In this document: piece by piece, positions 1,855 through 12,810 of the stretch
How positions within the stretch are numbered: the stretch's first letter is position 1
Layout: every line of letters starts with the position of its first letter
Assembly (NCBI GenBank): GCA_946007445.1
Contig: CAMGAL010000026.1
Location: forward strand, 1 to 12,810
Reading direction: 5' to 3'
Source: an uncultured Mediterranea sp.
GTDB lineage: Bacteria > Bacteroidota > Bacteroidia > Bacteroidales > Bacteroidaceae
Length of the DNA stretch: 12,810 nt
Translations under genes and position numbers: made by a program
Notes under the pieces: generated by a model
Seen by the model: the letters and a program-made list of their open reading frames with translations, nothing else
Told to the model about the DNA's origin: nothing
The model's database searches: none

Positions 1855-4800
1855 TTAGAAGCTGAGTTGTACGCCGCAAGTGAAGGACGTGGCAATGGGG
1901 TAGTTCCAGTCAGGGTTCTCCGGATCGGGGCAGGTGAGGCTGCCGCTCTTCAACGTCAGCAGATTCTGGCCGGAGAGGTAGATGCGGGCATTCTGCATTT
2001 TCAGCTTCTGCATCCAAGCTTCGGGCAGGGTGTAGCCCAGCTGCAGGGTACGCAGCTTCAGGTAGGAGCCATTTTCCACGAAGTAGCTGGAACGGCGCCC
2101 CTCGTCAGCTGTGTTGTTAGTGGTCAGAGCGGGTATGGTAGATGTGGTGTTGTCGGTGGTCCAGGCTCCGAGCAGTCGGTTACCCTTGTTGGAACCGGCA
2201 TCGGTCAGACTCCAGAAGTCGGTCTGGAACTTCTGGTTGTTGTAGACATCCTTGTCGGCTACGCCTTGCCAGAACATGGAGAGGTCGAAGTTCTTGTAAT
2301 TGAGAGCGATGTTCAGGCCATAGGTGAAGGCAGGCACGGGGTCGTAAATCCAAGTTTGGTCGTCAGCCGTTATCTTTCCGTCGCCCGTCAGATCGCGATA
2401 CTTCAGTCCGCCTACGCGGGCATTAGCCTGACCGTAGCTATCCACCTCTGCTTGATTCTGGAAGATGCCTTCCACCACATAGCCCACCATGGAACCATAG
2501 GGCTTTCCTGCTTCCACCAGATTCTGGGTGGTGGTGTGCTCGTAGGAACCGGTGGCCGTAGAGGGGAGGTAGGTCACCTTGTTGCGGAACATGTCGACGT
2601 TGGCATTCAGGTCGATACCCAGACCGTTGGACAGTTTGGTGCGGTAGCCCAACTGCAGTTCCAGACCCTGGTTGCGGAGCGAAGGTCCATTGGACCAAGA
2701 GGCTCCGCCCTCACCCAAGGCTCCCAAGTAGGCGGGAGAAATCAGCATGTCCTTCACATTCTTGATGTAAGCATCGAGCGAACCATAGAGGCTGCCACGC
2801 AGCAGGGTGAAGTCTACACCCACGTTGTACTGTTCGGCCGACTCCCACTTAAGGTTGGGATTGGCCAGCTGGGTGGCGCGGTAGCCCGAGGGGAAGGTGC
2901 CGGAGTATTGCAGATAGAGGTCGTAGGCGGTTGACGTGACGCGATCCTGACCATAGTCGGCCACATAGAGGCCAAACTGGGCATTGTTGTCGATGGCTTG
3001 GTTACCAGTCTGTCCCCAGGAGGCGCGTATCTTCAGGTCGTCTATCCACTCCTTGTTCAGCAACTTAGAGAGGCGGAAACCCAGTGTGGCGGCAGGGAAG
3101 GTACCCCAACGGTTGTCGCGACCGAAGCGGGAGGAACCGTCGCGGCGGATGGTGAAGGAAGCCAGAATCAGGTCGTCGTAGTTGTAGTCTACCTTGCCGA
3201 AGAAGGAGGCCAGCCGGTAGCCCACCTGCGCACCGCTGTTCTTGGCCACACCGGTGGAGGCATTGGGCCACATGTAGTCGATGTCTTCCAGGGCATATCC
3301 TTCGGAGTAGGCATTGAACTCAATGAGCGTCTGCTTGTTCAGTTCGGTACCCAGCAGGACTGTGAAGTCGTGGGTGTCGTTCAGGCGGAAGTGGTAGTTG
3401 GCTGTGTTCGACCAGGTCCAGTCGGTCGTATTATTATGGGTGAGTGTGGTTTTGGCTATGTCGTTGTTGACGATGTCCGAGTGGAAGGTGCGAGTCTTGG
3501 CATTGATGAACGACGAGTAGTGGTCTATTCCGAAAGTGGAGCGGAGCGTGAGTCCTTCGATTGGTTTCAGCTCGACGAAAGCGTTACCAAACATGCGCCA
3601 GTAGCCCAGTGTGTTGTCTCGGTTGTACACCAGTTCGCGTAAGGGGTTCTGACGGTCGCTCATACCACCCACCGGACCAGAGAAAGTCTTGCCATCCTCT
3701 TCCTAGATAGGGACGGTGGGGGCCATCTTCAGGGCATTTTCCATGGGGGCGCAGTCTACCTGCTCGCTGTAGGTCAGGGTGAAGTTCTCGCCCACGGTGA
3801 GGTTTTTGTTCAGCTTGTAGCTGGAGTTCATACGGGCTGCGAAGTTCTCGAAGCTGGTGTGCTTCAGGATGCCTTGGTTGTTCTTGTAGCCCAGGGAGAA
3901 CATGGATGACGATTTGTCGCCGGCCTTCGAGATGGAGAGGTCGTAGTTCTGCGAGATGCCGGTCTGTGAGATGGCATCCAGCCAGTCGGTGTCAGACAGG
4001 GCCATGGTCTGCTTGGCATTGATGTATCCGTTGTAGCGGCCACCCACACTATAGGTTTGATAGCTCTGGGTAGCGGGATTCCAGGCTTGGATGGGCATGC
4101 CGCCTTGCGCGTTGAGGTTGAGGCCGTAGTTGGCCGCATAGGTGACGGGATCGATGCCGTCGTTGAGGGCGGCCTGTGCCATGGCGGTGGCATATTCGCG
4201 GGTATTGCAGAGTTTCATCAGCGATTGTGAGGTGTAGGTCTGTGCCGTGAGGCTGGCCGAGAAGTCCACACTCACCTTCTCAGCCTTTTTGCCCTGCTTG
4301 GTGGTGATGATGATGACACCGTTCGAGGCGCGCGAACCGTAGATGGAGGCCGATGCAGCATCCTTCAGCACCTGCATGCTCTCGATGTCGCCGGCATTGA
4401 GCGAGTTGAGCGGACGGGTGGTGGGCACTCCGTCGATGACGAACAGAGGATCTTGGGAGGAGTTGAACGAACCGATACCACGGATGCGGACAGTACCGGT
4501 GCCACTGGGTGAACCCGAAGCGGTGATGGTCATGCCCGGCACCTTGCCCTGAAGGGCACGCATGGGGTCAGCGTCCGATGAGGTTTTGAGTGACTTTGTC
4601 GAGACTACAGCCACTGAGCCGGTCAGGTCGGCCTTGCGTTGCGTGGTGTAGCCCGTCACGACCACTTCACTCAGACTGTTGCTCTCTTCGGCAAGGGTGA
4701 TTTTCATGGTAGGCGTAGCGGCCAACTCTTGCGTCTCATATCCTATATAAGAGACAACGAGCGTGGCTCCCTTTTCGACACTGAGCTGGAAGTTTCCATC

Positions 4801-4974
4801 CAGATCGGTGATGGTACCCCGACCGGTACCTTTCTCTTGGATCGTGGCTCCTATCAGGGCTTCACCCTGTGTGTCGGTTACAGTGCCACTAACCTTCATT
4901 TCTTGTGCGTACACGAGGATGCCACAGAGGAGCATCCAACAGCAGATTGTTAGTTTTTTGATTGATTGTTTCAT
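1855..4974 (-). pseudogene. SusC/RagA-family TonB-dependent transporter, interrupted by one in-frame TAG
   Basis: Read from ATG 4974 to TAA 1855 this is a complete SusC-like transporter of 1039 residues if the internal codon is counted, the usual family length. It has a signal peptide (about 1-23, ending LVYAQ) and a carboxypeptidase-regulatory-like domain (about 27-105, VSGTVTDTQGEALIGATI). A SEVVVTGY segment leads into a plug domain (to about 232, with RIRGIGS, DPLFVIDGVP, SASIYGSRASNGVIIITTKQG), then a 22-strand-type barrel ending in Phe (GVQLSF). Codon 424 (3705-3703) is TAG. The next codons, EEDGKTFSGPVGGMSDRQNP, continue in the same frame, so no indel is involved. Relatives usually have a Tyr at this position (PVY-D/E), so TAC or TAT to TAG is the simplest change. 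A product stopping at 423 would lack most of the barrel and could not transport. Alternatives are a sequencing error or a suppressed stop. Confidence 0.9.
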
Positions 4975-7309: not shown

Positions 7310-7335
7310 TCAACTCCCCTCCTCCGGGGAGTTGA
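7310..7335. repeat. Perfect 10-bp stem hairpin
   Basis: TCAACTCCCC (7310-7319) pairs perfectly with GGGGAGTTGA (7326-7335) around the loop TCCTCC. No T run follows in either direction, so it is not a standard intrinsic terminator. Its right arm is part of the 31-bp element found again at 12526-12556. Confidence 0.8.
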
Positions 7336-7356
7336 GATAGACTATTGTATCACTCC
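7326..7356 (-). repeat. 31-bp interspersed element, copy 1 (inverted relative to copy 2)
   Basis: Read on the minus strand this begins GGAGTGATAC and ends TATCTCAACTCCCC. It matches 12526-12556 on the plus strand at 28 of 31 positions without gaps. Copy 1 lies 227 bp upstream of the -24 box before trkH. The pair flanks the trkH-to-response-regulator operon in inverted orientation. Confidence 0.8.
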
Positions 7357-7372
7357 AAATGTCGGATGAGCC

Positions 7373-7441
7373 GAAATCGCGCCAACTGAGGAAACGAAAT
7401 CGCGCCAACAGAGGAAATGAAATCGTGCCAACTGAGGAAAT
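7373..7441. repeat. Three 23-bp tandem direct repeats
   Basis: Units start at 7373, 7396 and 7419 with an exact 23-bp period. The shared core is GAAATCGYGCCAACWGAGG followed by AAAY, and the copies differ by only one to three bases. There are no spacers, so this is not a CRISPR array. The function is unknown. The regular period suggests cooperative protein binding or replication slippage. Confidence 0.85.
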
Positions 7442-7488
7442 TATTGCTCTTCTTCTTAAAACTACATATTATCAAATTGGAAAACCTA

Positions 7489-7505
7489 CCCTTCCAAAAT
7501 GAAAA
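7489..7505 (+). promoter_or_regulatory. Candidate upstream activator site for the trkH promoter
   Basis: CCCTTCCAAAATGAAAA recurs exactly, but inverted, at 12608-12624. In both places its near end is 78 bp upstream of a TGGCAC sigma-54 -24 element. It overlaps a local dyad TTGGAA-n9-TTCCAA (7477-7497). Orientation-independent sites 80-150 bp upstream are typical for sigma-54 activators, and the operon encodes one. Binding by that regulator is inferred. Confidence 0.5.
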
Positions 7506-7537
7506 ACATACATGGGTTGATGAGCTCTTGAAATAAC

Positions 7538-7598
7538 TGTATCTCGCTGATTATCTGATATTCGTTGCTGTATCTGCAGCTGTGGCACTTTCTTTGTA
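7538..7598 (+). promoter_or_regulatory. Candidate sigma-54 promoter of the trkH operon
   Basis: TGGCAC-TTTCT-TTGTA (7583-7598) matches the sigma-54 pattern TGGCAC-N5-TTGCA except for GT instead of GC at -12. The predicted start is near 7609, about 20 bases before the trkH ATG. The block TGTATCTCGCTGAT at 7538-7551 recurs as TGTATCATGCTGAT at the same 45-base distance from the second sigma-54 site (12702). An overlapping primary-sigma reading is also possible (GTTG at 7564, 21-base spacer, TTTCTTTG at 7589), so dual control or the other sigma factor cannot be excluded. Confidence 0.5.
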
Positions 7599-7630
7599 TA
7601 AGATAGATGTAAGTGCAAGAAAAGTTGGAT

Positions 7631-9139
7631 ATGGATATACAACGATATGGGGTTAGTCCCCATTTGGATCAGGTACATTCGGGTGAACTCAGCTATCGGT
7701 TCATTGCCCATCTGATAGGCCAGCTGCTGGCATTTGAATCGATGCTGTTGCTGGTGTGTTGCTGTGTCTCTTTGGCGTATGGCGAAAGCGATTTGATGTC
7801 CTTCATCGGTTCTTTCTCTGTATGTCTGGCGGCCAGTGTCATGCTGTTGGTCTATGGCCGGAAAAAGGAGTCTGCTCCCTCACGCTATGAAGCGTATATC
7901 GTGGTGGCTCTTTCTTGGGTGTTTTTCACGGTTTTCGGAATGTTCCCTTATCTGTGGGGCGGCTTCATCCCCACGGTCACCGACGCTTTCTTTGAGACCA
8001 TGTCGGGCTTCACCACCACGGGAGCCACCATATTGGACCACATCGAGCGTATGCCCCACGGCATCCTGTTCTGGCGAAGCCTGACGCAATGGATAGGCGG
8101 TTTGGGCATTGTCTGCTTCACCATCGTCCTGCTGCCGGGGCTGGGTGTCAGCAGTCAGATGCTTTTTCTTTCTGAGGCCACGGGAGTGACTCACAGCAAG
8201 ATTTGTCCCAAGACCCGTGTCATGGCCCGATATATCTTTATGGTTTATATCTTGTTGACGCTCATCGAGAGTGTGCTCTTGAAGGCGGGCGGCATGAGTC
8301 TGTTTGATGCGGTTTGCCATTCGATGACCACCACAGCTACTGGAGGATTTTCCACCAAGCAGGAGAGCATCGCCTATTGGCATTCCCCCTACATAGAATA
8401 TGTGGTGTCGCTGTTCATGTTGCTTTCAGCCGTCAATTTCTCGCTCTACATCGCTGCGTTCAAGAGTACTTGGAGACAAATACGGCAGAATGTAGAACTG
8501 AAATGGTTTGCCTGCTCCGTGGGCCTGCTCACCCTCATTATTGCAGTGGCACTCATCCAGAACAACGGGTATGGTGTGGAGGAAGCATTCCGCAAGTCGC
8601 TGTTCCAGGTGGCCACCTGCCACACCTCGTGCGGCTTTGCCACCGACGACTACAACCTGTGGCCGCCATTCACGTGGATGCTGCTGATTTTTGCCATGCT
8701 ATCGGGGGGATGTACGGGGTCCACGAGTGGAGGCGTCAAGAACCTCAGGCTTGTCATCATTGCCAGTTGCATCCGCAACCAGTTCCGTCAGATACTGCAT
8801 CCGCGAGCTGTGTTGCCGGTAAGGGCGGGCGGTACGTTTGACAATAAGTTAGTGACCATGGTGCTTGTATTCTTCGCCGCCTATCTGTCGGTAGCCTTTG
8901 TCGGCTGGACCCTGCTGATGGCATTCGGGGTGGGCTTCACGGAAGCCATGAGCACCGTGATTTCGGCCATGGGCAATGTAGGGCCTGGATTGGGCAGTTT
9001 CGGACCGACCTTCTCCTGGGCTGCCCTGCCCGATGCCGCCAAGTGGATACTATCCTCCCTGATGCTCATCGGTCGACTGGAGATATTCGGATTCCTGCTC
9101 ATCTTCTACCGTTCCACCTGGAGGGGCAGTTGGGCATAG
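7631..9139 (+). CDS. trkH: TrkH-family potassium uptake channel subunit
   Basis: From ATG 7631 the product is 502 residues, normal for TrkH. It is a polytopic inner-membrane protein with the four pore-loop/filter segments of the TrkH/KtrB superfamily: SGFTTTGAT (125-133), TTTATGGFS (233-241), TSCGFAT (332-338) and AMGNVGPGLG (446-455). It also has the conserved SGGCTGSTSGGVKNLR (358-373) and IGRLEIF near the C-terminus. The family moves K+ inward, normally gated by a cytoplasmic TrkA/RCK ring. No trkA is in this window, so a partner must be encoded elsewhere. The frame extends six codons upstream to a GTG at 7613, but the ATG is preferred and has purine-rich AGAAAAG upstream. It is first in an operon with a Usp protein, kinase and sigma-54 regulator (34-base gap to the next frame), which implies K+- or turgor-responsive control. 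Confidence 0.93.
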   Translation: MDIQRYGVSPHLDQVHSGELSYRFIAHLIGQLLAFESMLLLVCCCVSLAYGESDLMSFIGSFSVCLAASVMLLVYGRKKESAPSRYEAYIVVALSWVFFTVFGMFPYLWGGFIPTVTDAFFETMSGFTTTGATILDHIERMPHGILFWRSLTQWIGGLGIVCFTIVLLPGLGVSSQMLFLSEATGVTHSKICPKTRVMARYIFMVYILLTLIESVLLKAGGMSLFDAVCHSMTTTATGGFSTKQESIAYWHSPYIEYVVSLFMLLSAVNFSLYIAAFKSTWRQIRQNVELKWFACSVGLLTLIIAVALIQNNGYGVEEAFRKSLFQVATCHTSCGFATDDYNLWPPFTWMLLIFAMLSGGCTGSTSGGVKNLRLVIIASCIRNQFRQILHPRAVLPVRAGGTFDNKLVTMVLVFFAAYLSVAFVGWTLLMAFGVGFTEAMSTVISAMGNVGPGLGSFGPTFSWAALPDAAKWILSSLMLIGRLEIFGFLLIFYRSTWRGSWA

Positions 9140-9173
9140 ACAAATATCATATTCATGACATCATCATAAACAT

Positions 9174-9659
9174 TTGCGTGAACTGGCACTGAAGAAGGTG
9201 GCCTTGCGAGTGGGTAAGAAGGTGGCGGACGAAGTCATGCCAAAGACACGCAGTAAAAGGGGCGTGGCCAAGTTGGTGGTGTGCGTTAGCAGCAATAATG
9301 CCACTCAGCAGCACATCATACGTAAGGCGGCACGAATGGCCGACATTCACGGAGCCGAGCTTGTGGCTTTGTATGTGCAGACATCGGACGAAAACAGTGA
9401 CAGCATACCACTCGACACACAGCGACATCTGATTAGCCATCTTGAATTAGTGGTGGAACTTGGTGGAATAGTAAAAAAGGTTGTGTCGGACAATGTGGCC
9501 CAGACCATTGCTAACTTTTGTCGGGAGCAGCGTGCTACCATGTTATGTATGGGACAGCCTTCTCTCTCTATACCCCGCCTGCTGTTCAGGGTGGGGAGCT
9601 ATCGGAAATTATTGTCGAAATTGAAAGAAATGAGCGTAGATTTGATTATCTTCGCATAA
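9174..9659 (+). CDS. Usp-domain protein equal to the C-terminal part of a Bacteroides-type KdpD
   Basis: Up to 161 residues if started at TTG 9174. The first 21 residues (LRELALKKVALRVGKKVADE region) match, from memory, the linker joining the KdpD domain to the Usp domain in the stand-alone KdpD proteins of Bacteroides kdp operons. The rest is a complete Usp-like fold: LVVCVSSNN, IRKAARMADIHGAELVALYVQT, ELGGIVKKVVSDN, RATMLCMGQPS, VDLIIFA. The N-terminal KdpD domain (about 200 residues with a Walker motif) is absent, because trkH ends only 34 bases upstream. The start is uncertain: there is no ATG before 9237 (which would give 140 residues). An ATG at 9155 is one base out of frame, and its own reading ends after four codons. 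It ends 15 bases before the histidine kinase gene, as KdpD does in kdp loci, so it may be a retained input module for that kinase or a remnant. Confidence 0.75.
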   Translation: MRELALKKVALRVGKKVADEVMPKTRSKRGVAKLVVCVSSNNATQQHIIRKAARMADIHGAELVALYVQTSDENSDSIPLDTQRHLISHLELVVELGGIVKKVVSDNVAQTIANFCREQRATMLCMGQPSLSIPRLLFRVGSYRKLLSKLKEMSVDLIIFA

Positions 9660-9674
9660 TATAATAGGAAGAAT

Positions 9675-11132
9675 ATGAATATCAAGGAGAAACTTACACT
9701 TTCCGTCGGCGTGCTTGTCTCGCTGATTGTCGCCCTGGTGGCCCTGTCGGTCTTCAGTCTGCAGGTATTGACGGCTACCGACCCTGCTTCGCCGATGGCC
9801 GACTATGGCTTGACGCGCGCGCTCGTCTTGCTGCTCGTCTTTGGAGCCTTGAGCATCGCCATCGGTGTGTGGATGCTGGTCAAGCTGCCCCAAACCGTTG
9901 CGCGTCCGTTTCAGGAACTGACCCAAGGCATCAATGAGATAGCCAATCATAACTACGACACCGAGTTGAACCTGTCCGGAAGCCGGGAGCTGGAACAGCT
10001 GTCGGCCAACTTCAACCGCATGGCGCGACGCTTGCGCGACTACCACAACTCATCGCTCTCCCAACTGCGCGTGTCGAAGCAGTACATCGAAACCATCATC
10101 GACTCCATTGACGAGCCCATCATCTGCATTGACCGCAACCTGATGCTCTACTTCATCAATAACGAGGCCCTCGACATCCTCAATCTCCGACGTGAGGAGG
10201 CCGTGGGCAAGTCGGCACAGGACACAGCCATGCGCAACGACCTGCTGCGCCGCTTGCTGGTGGGGATGGACGGACACAAGGAACCAGAGACCGACGAGAA
10301 AAAGACAGAGCCACTGAAAATCTATGCCGACAACAAGGAGAGCTATTTCCAGGTGAAATATCTGCCCGTAAGGATGACTTGCAGCGATGGCAGTATCAAG
10401 GAGAGCGGCACGGTCATCATGCTGAAGAACATCACGGAGTTTCATAAGCTCGATGTGGCAAAGACTACCTTTATCTCCACTATCTACCACGAACTCAAGA
10501 CCCCTATCTCCGCCATCCTGATGAGCCAGCAACTGCTGGCCGACAACCGGGTGGGCGGACTCAACCCCGAACAGAAGGAACTCTCCGACAGCATCCGCGA
10601 GAACGGCGAACGCCTGCTCAGCATCACGGGCGAGTTGCTCAACATGACTCAGGTGGAGAGCGGCGCCCTGCAGCTCAAGCCCCATATCACGAAGCCCATC
10701 GAACTGATCGACTATGCCATCAAGGCCAATCAGGTGCAGGCCGACAAGTTTCACATCAACATCGAGGTGGACTACCCGAAGGAGAAGATCAGCAAGCTTT
10801 ATGTGGATAGCGAGAAGATCGCCTGGGTGCTGACCAATCTGCTAAGCAATGCCATCCGATATTCTTCGGAAAACGACCGGGTGATTATCGGGGCCCTGCA
10901 GCAGGATGAACACCACGTGATGCTCTATGTACAGGATTTCGGACGAGGCATCGACCCCCGCTATCATGAGAGCATCTTCGAGCGATACTTCCGTGTGCCG
11001 GGTACCAAGATACAGGGCAGCGGACTGGGCCTCTCCATCTCGCGCGACTTTGTTGAGGCGCACAATGGCACGCTGACTGTTGAAAGCGAACTGGGCAAGG
11101 GCAGCAGGTTTATTGTCACCCTGCCGGTGTGA
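9675..11132 (+). CDS. Membrane sensor histidine kinase (HAMP-PAS-HisKA-HATPase)
   Basis: 485 residues from ATG 9675, preceded by TAGGAAG. Two TM helices (about 8-32 and 48-70) enclose only about 15 periplasmic residues, so the input is probably intramembrane or cytoplasmic. A HAMP linker (about 71-125) follows, then a PAS domain (about 133-255, IIDSIDEPIICIDRNLMLYFINNEA). The HisKA H-box is FISTIYHELKTP with His272. The ATPase has N-box TNLLSNAIRYS (Asn392), G1 DFGRGI (421-426) and G2 GSGLGLSI (448-455), all intact. It should autophosphorylate at His272 and pass phosphate to the response regulator encoded 19 bases downstream. The preceding Usp/KdpD-like protein may act as a separate input subunit, because in Bacteroides kdp loci KdpD and the kinase are separate proteins. 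Confidence 0.92.
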   Translation: MNIKEKLTLSVGVLVSLIVALVALSVFSLQVLTATDPASPMADYGLTRALVLLLVFGALSIAIGVWMLVKLPQTVARPFQELTQGINEIANHNYDTELNLSGSRELEQLSANFNRMARRLRDYHNSSLSQLRVSKQYIETIIDSIDEPIICIDRNLMLYFINNEALDILNLRREEAVGKSAQDTAMRNDLLRRLLVGMDGHKEPETDEKKTEPLKIYADNKESYFQVKYLPVRMTCSDGSIKESGTVIMLKNITEFHKLDVAKTTFISTIYHELKTPISAILMSQQLLADNRVGGLNPEQKELSDSIRENGERLLSITGELLNMTQVESGALQLKPHITKPIELIDYAIKANQVQADKFHINIEVDYPKEKISKLYVDSEKIAWVLTNLLSNAIRYSSENDRVIIGALQQDEHHVMLYVQDFGRGIDPRYHESIFERYFRVPGTKIQGSGLGLSISRDFVEAHNGTLTVESELGKGSRFIVTLPV

Positions 11133-11151
11133 ATCATTTAAAGACAGAACC

Positions 11152-12489
11152 ATGAACAAGATACTGCTTATCGACGATGAACCCACCCGCCGGCTGCGCC
11201 TCGCACGCCTGCTGGAGCTGGAAGGTTATGAGGTGCTGAAAGCCAAAGACCGTGCCACGGCACTCTATACACTGAATAAGCAGGAGGTGCAGGTGGTGCT
11301 CTGCGATGTGTTCCTGCCCGACGGCAACGGCGTGGATATGGTGCAGGAACTGCAGCAGCTGGCTCCTGCCTCCAAGATTATCCTCCTCACCGCCCACGGC
11401 AACATCCCCGACGGCGTGCAGGCCATCAAGAACGGAGCCTTCGACTATATCGTCAAGGGCGATGACAACCGGAAGATCATCCCCATCGTGAGCCGTGCGA
11501 TGGATGCCATTGCGTCAGAACAGAAGAAAAAGACATCAAGTGCCACCACGGCCAAATCGCCTACGTTTGACACGATTGTCGGAAAATCGGCGGCCATCGC
11601 TGAGGTAATCCGGCAAGCCAGAAAGGTGGCTGCTACAGATGTTTCCGTGCTCATCAATGGCGAAACCGGCACCGGCAAGGAAGTCTTTGCCCAGGCCATC
11701 CACAGTGCCAGCCGCCGGAGCGGCGAGGCCTTCCTCGCCCTCAACTGCTCTGCCTTCAGCCGCGAACTGCTGGAGAGTGAGCTCTTCGGCTATAAGGAAG
11801 GAGCGTTTACGGGAGCCGTCAAGGACAAGCGGGGACTGCTGGAGGAAGCCAATCGCGGCACCCTCTTCCTCGACGAGATTGGCGAGATGGCACTGGAGCT
11901 GCAGGCCAAGCTGCTGCGTGTGCTCGAGACGGGCGAGTTCGTCAAGGTGGGCGACACGAAGACCACCCGTGTGGATGTGCGCATCCTTTCGGCCACCAAC
12001 CGCCAGCTGAAGGAGGAGATAGCCCATGGCCGTTTCCGCGAGGACCTCTACTTCCGCCTCTCCGTGTTCCGCATCGAACTTCCACCATTGCGCCAGCGCA
12101 AGGAGGACATATTGCCGCTTGCCCAGCATTTCATTGAGCGATATGCCAAGCAAATAGGCCGTCCTGCCCCGACGCTCTCTTCCGAAGCAAAGAATCTGTT
12201 CTTGTCTTATCCGTGGCCGGGCAATGTGCGTGAGATGATGAACGCCGTTGAACACGCACTGATTGTCTGCGACAGCGAGGTCACCTGTCATGACCTGCCC
12301 ATCGACATGCTTTCGGGCGATACCTCCACGGCTGCCGATGACTCCCTTGACCTGAAGAGTGTGGAGCGCAACCACATCATCCGCGTTCTCCACCACACGC
12401 ATGGCAACAAGGCAGAAACGGCCCGCCTGCTCAAAATTGGACTCACCACGCTCTATCGCAAGATTGAGGAGTATGGAATAACTGTTTGA
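11152..12489 (+). CDS. Sigma-54-dependent (NtrC-family) response regulator
   Basis: 445 residues from ATG 11152. The frame is open further upstream, but that part overlaps the kinase end and lacks the receiver start KILLIDDE. The receiver domain (1-120) has Asp8-Asp9, phospho-acceptor Asp52 (VVLCDVFLPDG), Thr80 and Lys102. The AAA+ domain (about 138-370) has Walker A GETGTGKE (170-177), the sigma-54-contacting loop GAFTGA (217-222), Walker B GTLFLDEIG (236-244), and the ATNR, FREDLYFRL and PWPGNVRE motifs. A Fis-type helix-turn-helix (about 415-442, GNKAETARLLKIGLTTLYRKIEEYGI) ends the protein. It should remodel sigma-54 RNA polymerase after phosphorylation by the upstream kinase. KdpE of proteobacteria is OmpR-type, so a sigma-54 activator in a K+ locus is a distinct solution. 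Likely targets are the -24/-12 sequences before trkH and before 12769. Confidence 0.95.
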   Translation: MNKILLIDDEPTRRLRLARLLELEGYEVLKAKDRATALYTLNKQEVQVVLCDVFLPDGNGVDMVQELQQLAPASKIILLTAHGNIPDGVQAIKNGAFDYIVKGDDNRKIIPIVSRAMDAIASEQKKKTSSATTAKSPTFDTIVGKSAAIAEVIRQARKVAATDVSVLINGETGTGKEVFAQAIHSASRRSGEAFLALNCSAFSRELLESELFGYKEGAFTGAVKDKRGLLEEANRGTLFLDEIGEMALELQAKLLRVLETGEFVKVGDTKTTRVDVRILSATNRQLKEEIAHGRFREDLYFRLSVFRIELPPLRQRKEDILPLAQHFIERYAKQIGRPAPTLSSEAKNLFLSYPWPGNVREMMNAVEHALIVCDSEVTCHDLPIDMLSGDTSTAADDSLDLKSVERNHIIRVLHHTHGNKAETARLLKIGLTTLYRKIEEYGITV

Positions 12490-12525
12490 ATGCTCCATCT
12501 CTCATTTCTGGCTCATCTGACAGTT

Positions 12526-12556
12526 GGAGTGATACCATAGGTTATCTCAACTCCCC
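12526..12556 (+). repeat. 31-bp interspersed element, copy 2
   Basis: This begins GGAGTGATAC and ends TATCTCAACTCCCC, and matches the minus strand of 7326-7356 at 28 of 31 positions (the three differences lie in the middle). It lies 146 bp upstream of the second sigma-54 -24 element. Unlike copy 1 it does not sit in a perfect hairpin; instead a short CTCTTC/GAAGAG stem follows. Confidence 0.8.
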
Positions 12557-12585
12557 TCTTCCTGTCTGAAGAGCCTCATATCTTC

Positions 12586-12629
12586 CCCTTCCAAAGTGAA
12601 TGTGATATTTTCATTTTGGAAGGGTTTTT
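12586..12629 (+). terminator. Strong intrinsic terminator-like hairpin after the response regulator
   Basis: CCCTTCCAAAGTGAA (12586-12600) pairs with TTCATTTTGGAAGGG (12610-12624), a 15-bp stem with one G-U pair and a 9-base loop, followed by TTTTT. It lies about 97 bases after the operon's last stop codon. Its right arm belongs to the 17-bp block shared with 7489-7505, so the same DNA may also act as an activator site for the next gene. Confidence 0.75.
12608..12624 (-). promoter_or_regulatory. Candidate upstream activator site for the gene at 12769
   Basis: On the minus strand this is identical to the 17-bp block at 7489-7505. It occupies exactly the same 17 positions relative to the -24 box as that block does before trkH (near end 78 bp upstream of TGGCAC). 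It doubles as the right arm of the terminator-like hairpin, so sequence conservation here could serve either role. Confidence 0.5.
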
Positions 12630-12656
12630 ATTGGCCTCAATTCTAATCCTACTCTT

Positions 12657-12717
12657 TGTATCATGCTGATAAATAATGTAATATAGTATTCATGGCCTCC
12701 TTGGCACGTCCATTGCG
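12657..12717 (+). promoter_or_regulatory. Sigma-54 promoter of the gene at 12769
   Basis: TTGGCACG-TCCA-TTGC (12701-12716) is a near-perfect -24/-12 sigma-54 element with the invariant GG and GC ten bases apart. The predicted start is around 12728, giving a leader of about 40 bases. The block TGTATCATGCTGAT (12657-12670) is shared with the trkH promoter at the same distance. Its position directly after a sigma-54 activator gene supports a functional promoter. Confidence 0.75.
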
Positions 12718-12768
12718 ATACATAAAGGTGACAACGATTTATGTATAACTTATAAAAAAAGAAAGAAA

Positions 12769-12810
12769 ATGGATTTGTTTACAATTGGATTTGCAATTTG
12801 CCTGCTGAGC
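12769..12810 (+). CDS. Start of a gene under the sigma-54 promoter (partial)
   Basis: ATG 12769, preceded by an A-rich AAAGAAAGAAA, opens a frame reading MDLFTIGFAICLLS to the window edge. The hydrophobic start suggests a membrane protein or small membrane peptide. I do not recognise it. It does not resemble the KdpF peptides I know. Its upstream sigma-54 element makes it a likely target of the adjacent regulator, so a role in K+ transport or osmotic adaptation is possible but unproven. Confidence 0.55.
   Translation, partial: MDLFTIGFAICLLS

Follow-up and report, generated by a model that had tools for sequence, protein, structure and literature searches.

In Escherichia coli, the response regulator KdpE is of the OmpR type and uses sigma-70. 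NtrC/NifA regulons are built on sigma-54 promoters with enhancer sites and integration host factor (IHF). In Desulfovibrio vulgaris, the kdp operon is described as being controlled by an NtrC-type regulator, DVU3334, which has a GAFTGA motif; the KdpD-like sensor there is separate from the kinase and bears a universal stress protein (USP) domain (PMC3333781, PMC4641369). The E. coli kdp operon has been tied to sigma-54 just indirectly, via PTS-Ntr (PMC3162934). Within the phylum Bacteroidota, a study of Flavobacterium psychrophilum used mapped 5' ends to infer -24/-12 promoters and mutated the promoter of one operon; its main text contains neither 'kdp' nor 'potassium' (PMC9723704). Kdp proteins are listed in Bacteroides species, with nothing on their control in the portion available (PMC7600693). 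The literature searched, which left subscription papers mostly outside, yielded no description of kdp or trkH under sigma-54 control in Bacteroidota. Sigma-54/NtrC-type control of kdp itself is already known, from D. vulgaris; the Bacteroidota case described here rests on genome comparison and starts from a stretch of 12,810 bp (the window), a complete contig (CAMGAL010000026.1) from a metagenome-assembled genome (MAG) that is estimated to be 73% complete and is referred to as the own genome. Two regions of this window, one upstream of trkH and one downstream of the gene for an NtrC-type regulator, are probably (at a probability of about 0.86) promoters of one sigma-54/NtrC-type K+ regulon.

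As in E. coli KdpDE, Kdp would be under two-component control (PMC11018627), and parts of a KdpD-type sensor are found in relatives; in contrast to KdpDE, the window regulator is NtrC-type, the promoters are of the -24/-12 type and there is no match to PF02702, the KdpD N-terminal sensor domain. NtrC-type control of kdp, as predicted here, and a USP-bearing sensor separate from the kinase are shared with the DVU3334 system, a likeness drawn by published description only. The D. vulgaris regulator, however, lies inside its kdp operon, which two other regulators also target, and one type of trkH is a predicted target here, whereas none is named for D. vulgaris in the available portions. The -24/-12 boxes, upstream tandem dyads and a putative bending site between them recall the NtrC/NifA regulons, from which the dyad sequence and the K+ regulon set this case apart. 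New relative to these systems are the proposed Bacteroidota regulon including trkH, the grammar of its sites (dyad, spacing and IHF-like element) and the trkH-usp-histidine kinase-response regulator (trkH-usp-HK-RR) operon of the window, without PF02702.

The two -24/-12 elements of the window are:
7583 to 7597, + strand: sigma-54 -24/-12 element TGGCAC-TTTCT-TTGT, trkH operon
12702 to 12716, + strand: sigma-54 -24/-12 element TGGCAC-GTCCA-TTGC, downstream (kdp) operon

Both are of the GG-N10-GC type. A first-pass annotation of the sequence had placed TGGCAC at 7583 and 12702, where it is indeed found; the longer motif that it proposed, TGGCAC-N5-TTGC, is exact only at 12702, with TTGT as the -12 box at 7583. 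The shared TGTATCnnGCTGAT that it described starts at 7538 and 12657, each time exactly 45 bp before the first base of TGGCAC, and does not recur elsewhere on the window's + strand. A shared 17-bp block does end exactly 78 bp upstream at both promoters, CCCTTCCAAAATGAAAA at 7489-7505 and TTTTCATTTTGGAAGGG at 12608-12624; the annotation gave no orientation, and the copies are reverse complements, which fits a palindromic site. The remainder of the two regions has diverged, as it had stated, with 44 of 130 bases identical in register. When the two 130-bp upstream regions were dinucleotide-shuffled as 2000 pairs, one pair reached 12/14 matches in register and none gave a 17-bp inverted match sharing the boundary. 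A search of the + strand at 7400-7640 and 12500-12790 for TAnnTTTG, the primary-sigma promoter type of Bacteroides, found no match.

Relatives show the 17-bp block as one portion of a dyad, CCCTTnCA-N3-TGnAAGGG, whose centre lies 86-89 bp before the -24 box; the corresponding centres in the window lie 85 (trkH) and 87 (kdp) bp upstream. Compared with the earlier description of a shared block, these alignments suggest a refinement, in which the 17 bp would be most of one palindromic site that is present twice, in tandem, in each window promoter:
7470 to 7482, no strand assigned: distal activator dyad (predicted) of the trkH promoter, TATCA-AAT-TGGAA, centre -107, score 7/8
7489 to 7507, no strand assigned: proximal activator dyad (predicted) of the trkH promoter, CCCTTCCA-AAA-TGAAAAAC, centre -85, right arm degenerate, containing the 17-bp block at 7489-7505
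12586 to 12604, no strand assigned: distal activator dyad (predicted) of the kdp promoter, CCCTTCCA-AAG-TGAATGTG, centre -107
12606 to 12624, no strand assigned: proximal activator dyad (predicted) of the kdp promoter, TATTTTCA-TTT-TGGAAGGG, centre -87, left arm degenerate, containing the 17-bp copy at 12608-12624

The distal dyad of the window kdp promoter scores 12/14 and the proximal one 11/14. The second dyad stands exactly at 107 in both window promoters, and a weaker tandem dyad near -107 is also seen across the promoter set (5.62/8 versus a null maximum of 4.92). Twenty-nine TGGCAC-N5-TTGY sites occur in the own genome, 28 of them testable, and a dyad score of 11/14 at 83-90 bp is found only at these two, the remaining 26 scoring 4-8. 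When the 28 half-dyad sites of the own genome (CCYTNYCANNNTGR) were considered instead, only the one at the window trkH was paired, at 80-92 bp, with a TGGC box whose -12 region holds a G; the window kdp site was missed by this test because the strong arm of its proximal dyad is on the opposite side. Since the own MAG is 73% complete, further targets may be missing.

Between the dyads and the -24 box lies a second conserved block:
7538 to 7564, + strand: conserved helper element of the trkH promoter, -45 to -19, with TGTATCnnGCTGAT as its left part (7538-7551) and an IHF-like core at 7552-7564 (6/9 match)
12657 to 12683, + strand: conserved helper element of the kdp promoter, -45 to -19, with an IHF-like core at 12671-12683

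Across 24 non-redundant promoters, taken from 37, columns -45 to -19 hold a mean of 0.69 bits. Shuffles give 0.22 (at most 0.32 in 2000), and positions beyond the block 0.23. Scored with the IHF consensus WATCAANNNNTTR, the promoters reached 6.46/9 at offset -31, the best offset scanned, versus 3.28 for shuffles at one fixed place (maximum 4.25). The -45 block of the first-pass annotation forms the left part of this conserved, IHF-like element. Its exact letters are not universal, with 11 of 35 relatives' promoters scoring at least 8/12 and 8 of 35 scoring 4 or less.

The first promoter is followed by four genes in the same direction, separated by intergenic gaps of 34, 15 and 19 bp, which we read as one operon, and the second by the beginning of a small open reading frame (ORF):
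7631 to 9139, + strand: trkH, K+ uptake channel subunit (Pfam PF02386, E 3.2e-61); the likely start, inferred, is ATG at 7631, and the tool's ORF begins with GTG at 7613
9174 to 9659, + strand: USP protein resembling the USP part of KdpD-like sensors in a profile search, no PF02702 match
9675 to 11132, + strand: histidine kinase, HAMP-PAS-HisKA-HATPase by domain matches
11152 to 12489, + strand: NtrC-type response regulator with a receiver, a sigma-54 AAA+ domain with GAFTGA loop and a Fis-type helix-turn-helix (HTH), ATG at 11152
12769 to 12810, + strand: first 14 codons (MDLFTIGFAICLLS) of a small ORF similar to the one of ~31 aa found before kdpF in relatives

The three domains of the regulator, GAFTGA loop included, are those that define the NtrC type; the query used for it in protein searches began at 11155. 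RpoN is encoded in the own genome (PF04552, E 2.1e-48), as are five matches to PF00216 (IHF/HU family). Rfam gave no match in the window at gathering thresholds. The small ORF at 12769 starts like MEVFSVEFAVCLLS of locus L069, where the ORF stands before kdpF and kdpA. Because the contig ends 42 bases (14 codons) into this ORF, the presence of kdpFABC after the second promoter is only inferred. In 25 of 29 kdp loci, of which L081-L103 are examples, a conserved ~31-aa membrane-like ORF with WFE near its end lies between the sigma-54 promoter and kdpF; one copy tested had no NCBIfam match, and the product is possibly an extra Kdp small subunit.

Genome comparison indicates that these elements, at fixed spacing, recur across the genus upstream of kdp and of one type of trkH, and that their occurrence is linked with the presence of the regulator. 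The dyad pattern alone, searched in 119 genomes of the genus, was found at 51 places in 41 genomes, and a backwards control pattern at 22 places (summed from the table). Forty-two of the 51 places were examined, and 35 of these are promoters, 29 of kdp, 5 of trkH and 1 of a decayed kdp locus (genome G144), all 35 with TGGCA at 86-89 bp. In the decayed locus (L275, G144:C100:28000-32418), the sigma-54/dyad promoter is intact and is followed by a USP fragment and by a kinase matched in several frames.

For trkH, a search of 148 genomes with the window TrkH protein yielded 30 loci, and a site was counted where a dyad scored at least 11/14 at 85-87 bp. Seven trkH loci have such a site upstream (the window, G001, G014, G021, G056, G120 and G121), and the six relatives each have two TrkH matches and a regulator orthologue. 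At the 23 other loci, no -24-like box is accompanied at 83-90 bp by a dyad with a score above 8. Amongst the eight relatives with the highest-scoring TrkH, a cut chosen after the list was seen, the site is present in 6/6 with the regulator and 0/2 without it. The latter two, G036 (whose TrkH match holds a stop codon) and G051, have a best regulator match that is 38-39% identical and no kdpA match.

The regulator itself was followed in 100 genomes, own included. An orthologue with 55-63% identity is present in 19 relatives (in two pieces in G055), the next best match being 40% identical. In 15 of the 19, kdpA comes after the regulator gene; in the other four (G001, G012, G021 and G047) kdp is located elsewhere, and its promoters there have the dyad at 87. 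All 15 regulator-kdpA intergenic regions have a dyad whose centre is 86-88 bp from the -24 box, and in 14 it is the best-scoring one; locus L079, from another family, has its best dyad at 109 and a weak one at 87, with the box TGGCCT. All nine kdpA genes, which come from 8 of 13 genomes checked, have a dyad site. The HTH of the regulator (LLKIGLTTLYRKIEEY) is identical in 9 of 10 aligned sequences, the window among them. The first-pass annotation had proposed comparing orthologous loci for a conserved activator and helper-site layout, and the layout is borne out there. The dyad at kdp and trkH promoters across relatives likewise supports the small K+ regulon that it predicted, and an NtrC-type regulator in place of KdpE is supported by the domains of the window regulator and by orthologues that adjoin kdp. 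Autoregulation through the trkH-usp-HK-RR operon, also predicted, agrees with the gene order of the window only; in relatives, unlike the window, a KdpD-like protein and the kinase stand behind kdpABC.

A scan of named genomes extended the comparison beyond the genus. Its best 80 loci were considered, 32 of which were compared with K+ genes, and 19 loci of Bacteroidota were inspected for the dyad, L168 being left out because its regulator is cut by the contig end. Among the matches listed, to which all counts for named genomes refer, at least 20 Bacteroidota loci have regulators that are 48-63% identical, and 16 of 20 have kdpA within 3 kb. A clean dyad stands behind the regulator in 10 of the 19, with a -24-like box 84-86 bp away in five (Flavobacterium psychrophilum, two further Flavobacterium, Elizabethkingia and Mucilaginibacter); F. 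supellecticarium (L167) is a sixth fit, by eye only. In seven of the nine loci without a clean dyad, kdpA is 1.3-2.9 kb away. When those seven intervals were scanned with a -24/-12 pattern, which is blind to TGGAAC-kind boxes, Paraprevotella clara (L151) gave a degenerate dyad at 88, and five loci gave no site that fits. In locus L166, from a Bacteroidales MAG, the genes for the regulator, the kinase and TrkH are consecutive and 21 kb contain no kdp match, an arrangement that is a second link of trkH with such a regulator.

Several observations weigh against one conserved sigma-54/NtrC-type K+ regulon. No kdpA match was found in the own 73%-complete MAG, and the IHF-like core at -31 agrees at just 6/9 positions in both window promoters. 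Seven of the 42 dyad places examined have none of TrkH, USP, kinase, regulator or KdpA within ~1.5 kb, and at two of these (L095, L109) a TGGCA also falls in a loose distance window. The regulator is present with no kdpA match in G120 (88% complete) and G144 (96%). It is also present in G017, G022, G031, G039, G055 and G100, where the best TrkH is less similar (50-53%) and has no site upstream, so trkH is not a target everywhere. Across promoters, the -12 box is variable (TTGT, TGGC, TCGA, TAGT), and the -24 box reads TGGCAT in several relatives and TGGCCT in one. Amongst the named loci, four clean dyads have no -24-like box at 84-86 (L152 75, L155 95, L166 107, L186 none), the interval scan placed a clean dyad of L154 at 95, before kdpA, and 9 of the 19 loci inspected, L162 and L164 included, have no clean dyad behind the regulator.

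The regulon could be real with its dyads bound by a different sigma-54 activator, as the own genome has 15 matches to the window regulator protein. We regard this as improbable, given that in the relatives with the closest TrkH the site goes with the regulator orthologue (6/6 against 0/2), that kdpA follows or lies near the regulator gene in most relatives (15/19) and named Bacteroidota (16/20), and that the HTH is nearly invariant in the aligned sequences.

Slightly less credible still is the proposal that the dyad block is only an intrinsic terminator of the regulator gene (and of other genes), its distance to the -24 box being incidental. The RNA of 12580-12640 would form a 15-bp stem from both kdp dyads (-22.4 kcal/mol, z -4.08), followed by T5, and the ten bases after the dyad hold a mean of 5.6 T behind the regulator (23 sites), 4.4 at kdp elsewhere (8) and 3.0 at trkH (8), with 6-7 T kept at 3 of the 8 kdp sites elsewhere (L083, L087, L147). 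The window trkH block, however, folds no better than shuffles on either strand (z 0.14, -0.63), and the dyad is kept at 85-89 bp at 8 trkH and 8 kdp sites that are not directly behind the regulator gene. In the four genomes where kdp and the regulator gene are apart, the dyad accompanies kdp, which contradicts termination of the regulator gene as its sole role. A dual role as activator site and terminator is likely at the regulator-kdp junction.

An origin of the shared blocks in a dispersed repeat or a recent duplication, without selection, is very improbable, since the dispersed intergenic repeat found near both promoters in inverted orientation (7326-7373, + strand, and 12510-12556, - strand, 89% identical) overlaps neither the dyads nor the -45 element nor the -24 box, CCCTTCCAAAATGA has two sites only in the own 73%-complete genome, and promoters so little alike in register keep a layout that is conserved in other species. 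This repeat has 22 matches in the own genome, and its window copies flank the trkH-to-regulator operon.

Under the preferred reading of one sigma-54/NtrC-type K+ regulon, the USP protein and the kinase would sense low K+, and the kinase would phosphorylate the NtrC-type regulator. The regulator would then bind the two tandem dyads, centred about -107 and -86 from the -24 box, while an IHF/HU-type protein may introduce a bend at the conserved element that lies between the dyads and the promoter, and the AAA+ domain with its GAFTGA loop would open sigma-54 RNA polymerase at -24/-12. One promoter would drive trkH-usp-HK-RR, including the regulator itself (autoregulation), and the other the small ORF and, by homology, kdpFABC.

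The sensor side differs between the window and its relatives. PF02702 had no match in the window USP protein and kinase or in the own 73%-complete genome; it was found in all three relatives' proteins tested (two Bacteroides-like, one named), where the same protein also holds a USP match. The window USP protein aligns to positions 214-341 of NF038185, a model of the KdpD-like non-kinase sensor, below the model's cut-off. We consider it unlikely that the K+ sensor of the own genome has been rebuilt, with the KdpD domain lost, the USP part left and trkH taken into the operon, so that TrkH or USP signals to a sigma-54 activator of both uptake systems. With such a rebuilt sensor, the USP protein would perhaps bind a nucleotide such as c-di-AMP, by analogy with the USP domain of Staphylococcus aureus KdpD, which binds c-di-AMP (PMC4686210, PMC8214093).

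For a dominant gut phylum whose sigma-54 regulons are little described in the literature searched, the comparison provides a precise candidate promoter grammar for K+ control, consisting of two dyads, an IHF-like element and the -24/-12 boxes. It also assigns a likely signal and targets to one NtrC-type activator among many. Kdp, a widespread pump, appears to be wired here unlike the textbook scheme of sigma-70 and an OmpR-type regulator; the dyad is found in Flavobacterium and Elizabethkingia as well, and TrkH, the second uptake system, would be tied to the same switch.

Two further features of the window were recorded. A SusC-type receptor on the - strand (1855-4974) is divided over two ORFs, a plug part at 3703-4974 and a barrel part at 1855-3672, which suggests a frame break or an assembly error. 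A 22-nt unit, GAAATCGCGCCAACTGAGGAAA, is present in three tandem copies with 23-bp spacing at 7373-7440.

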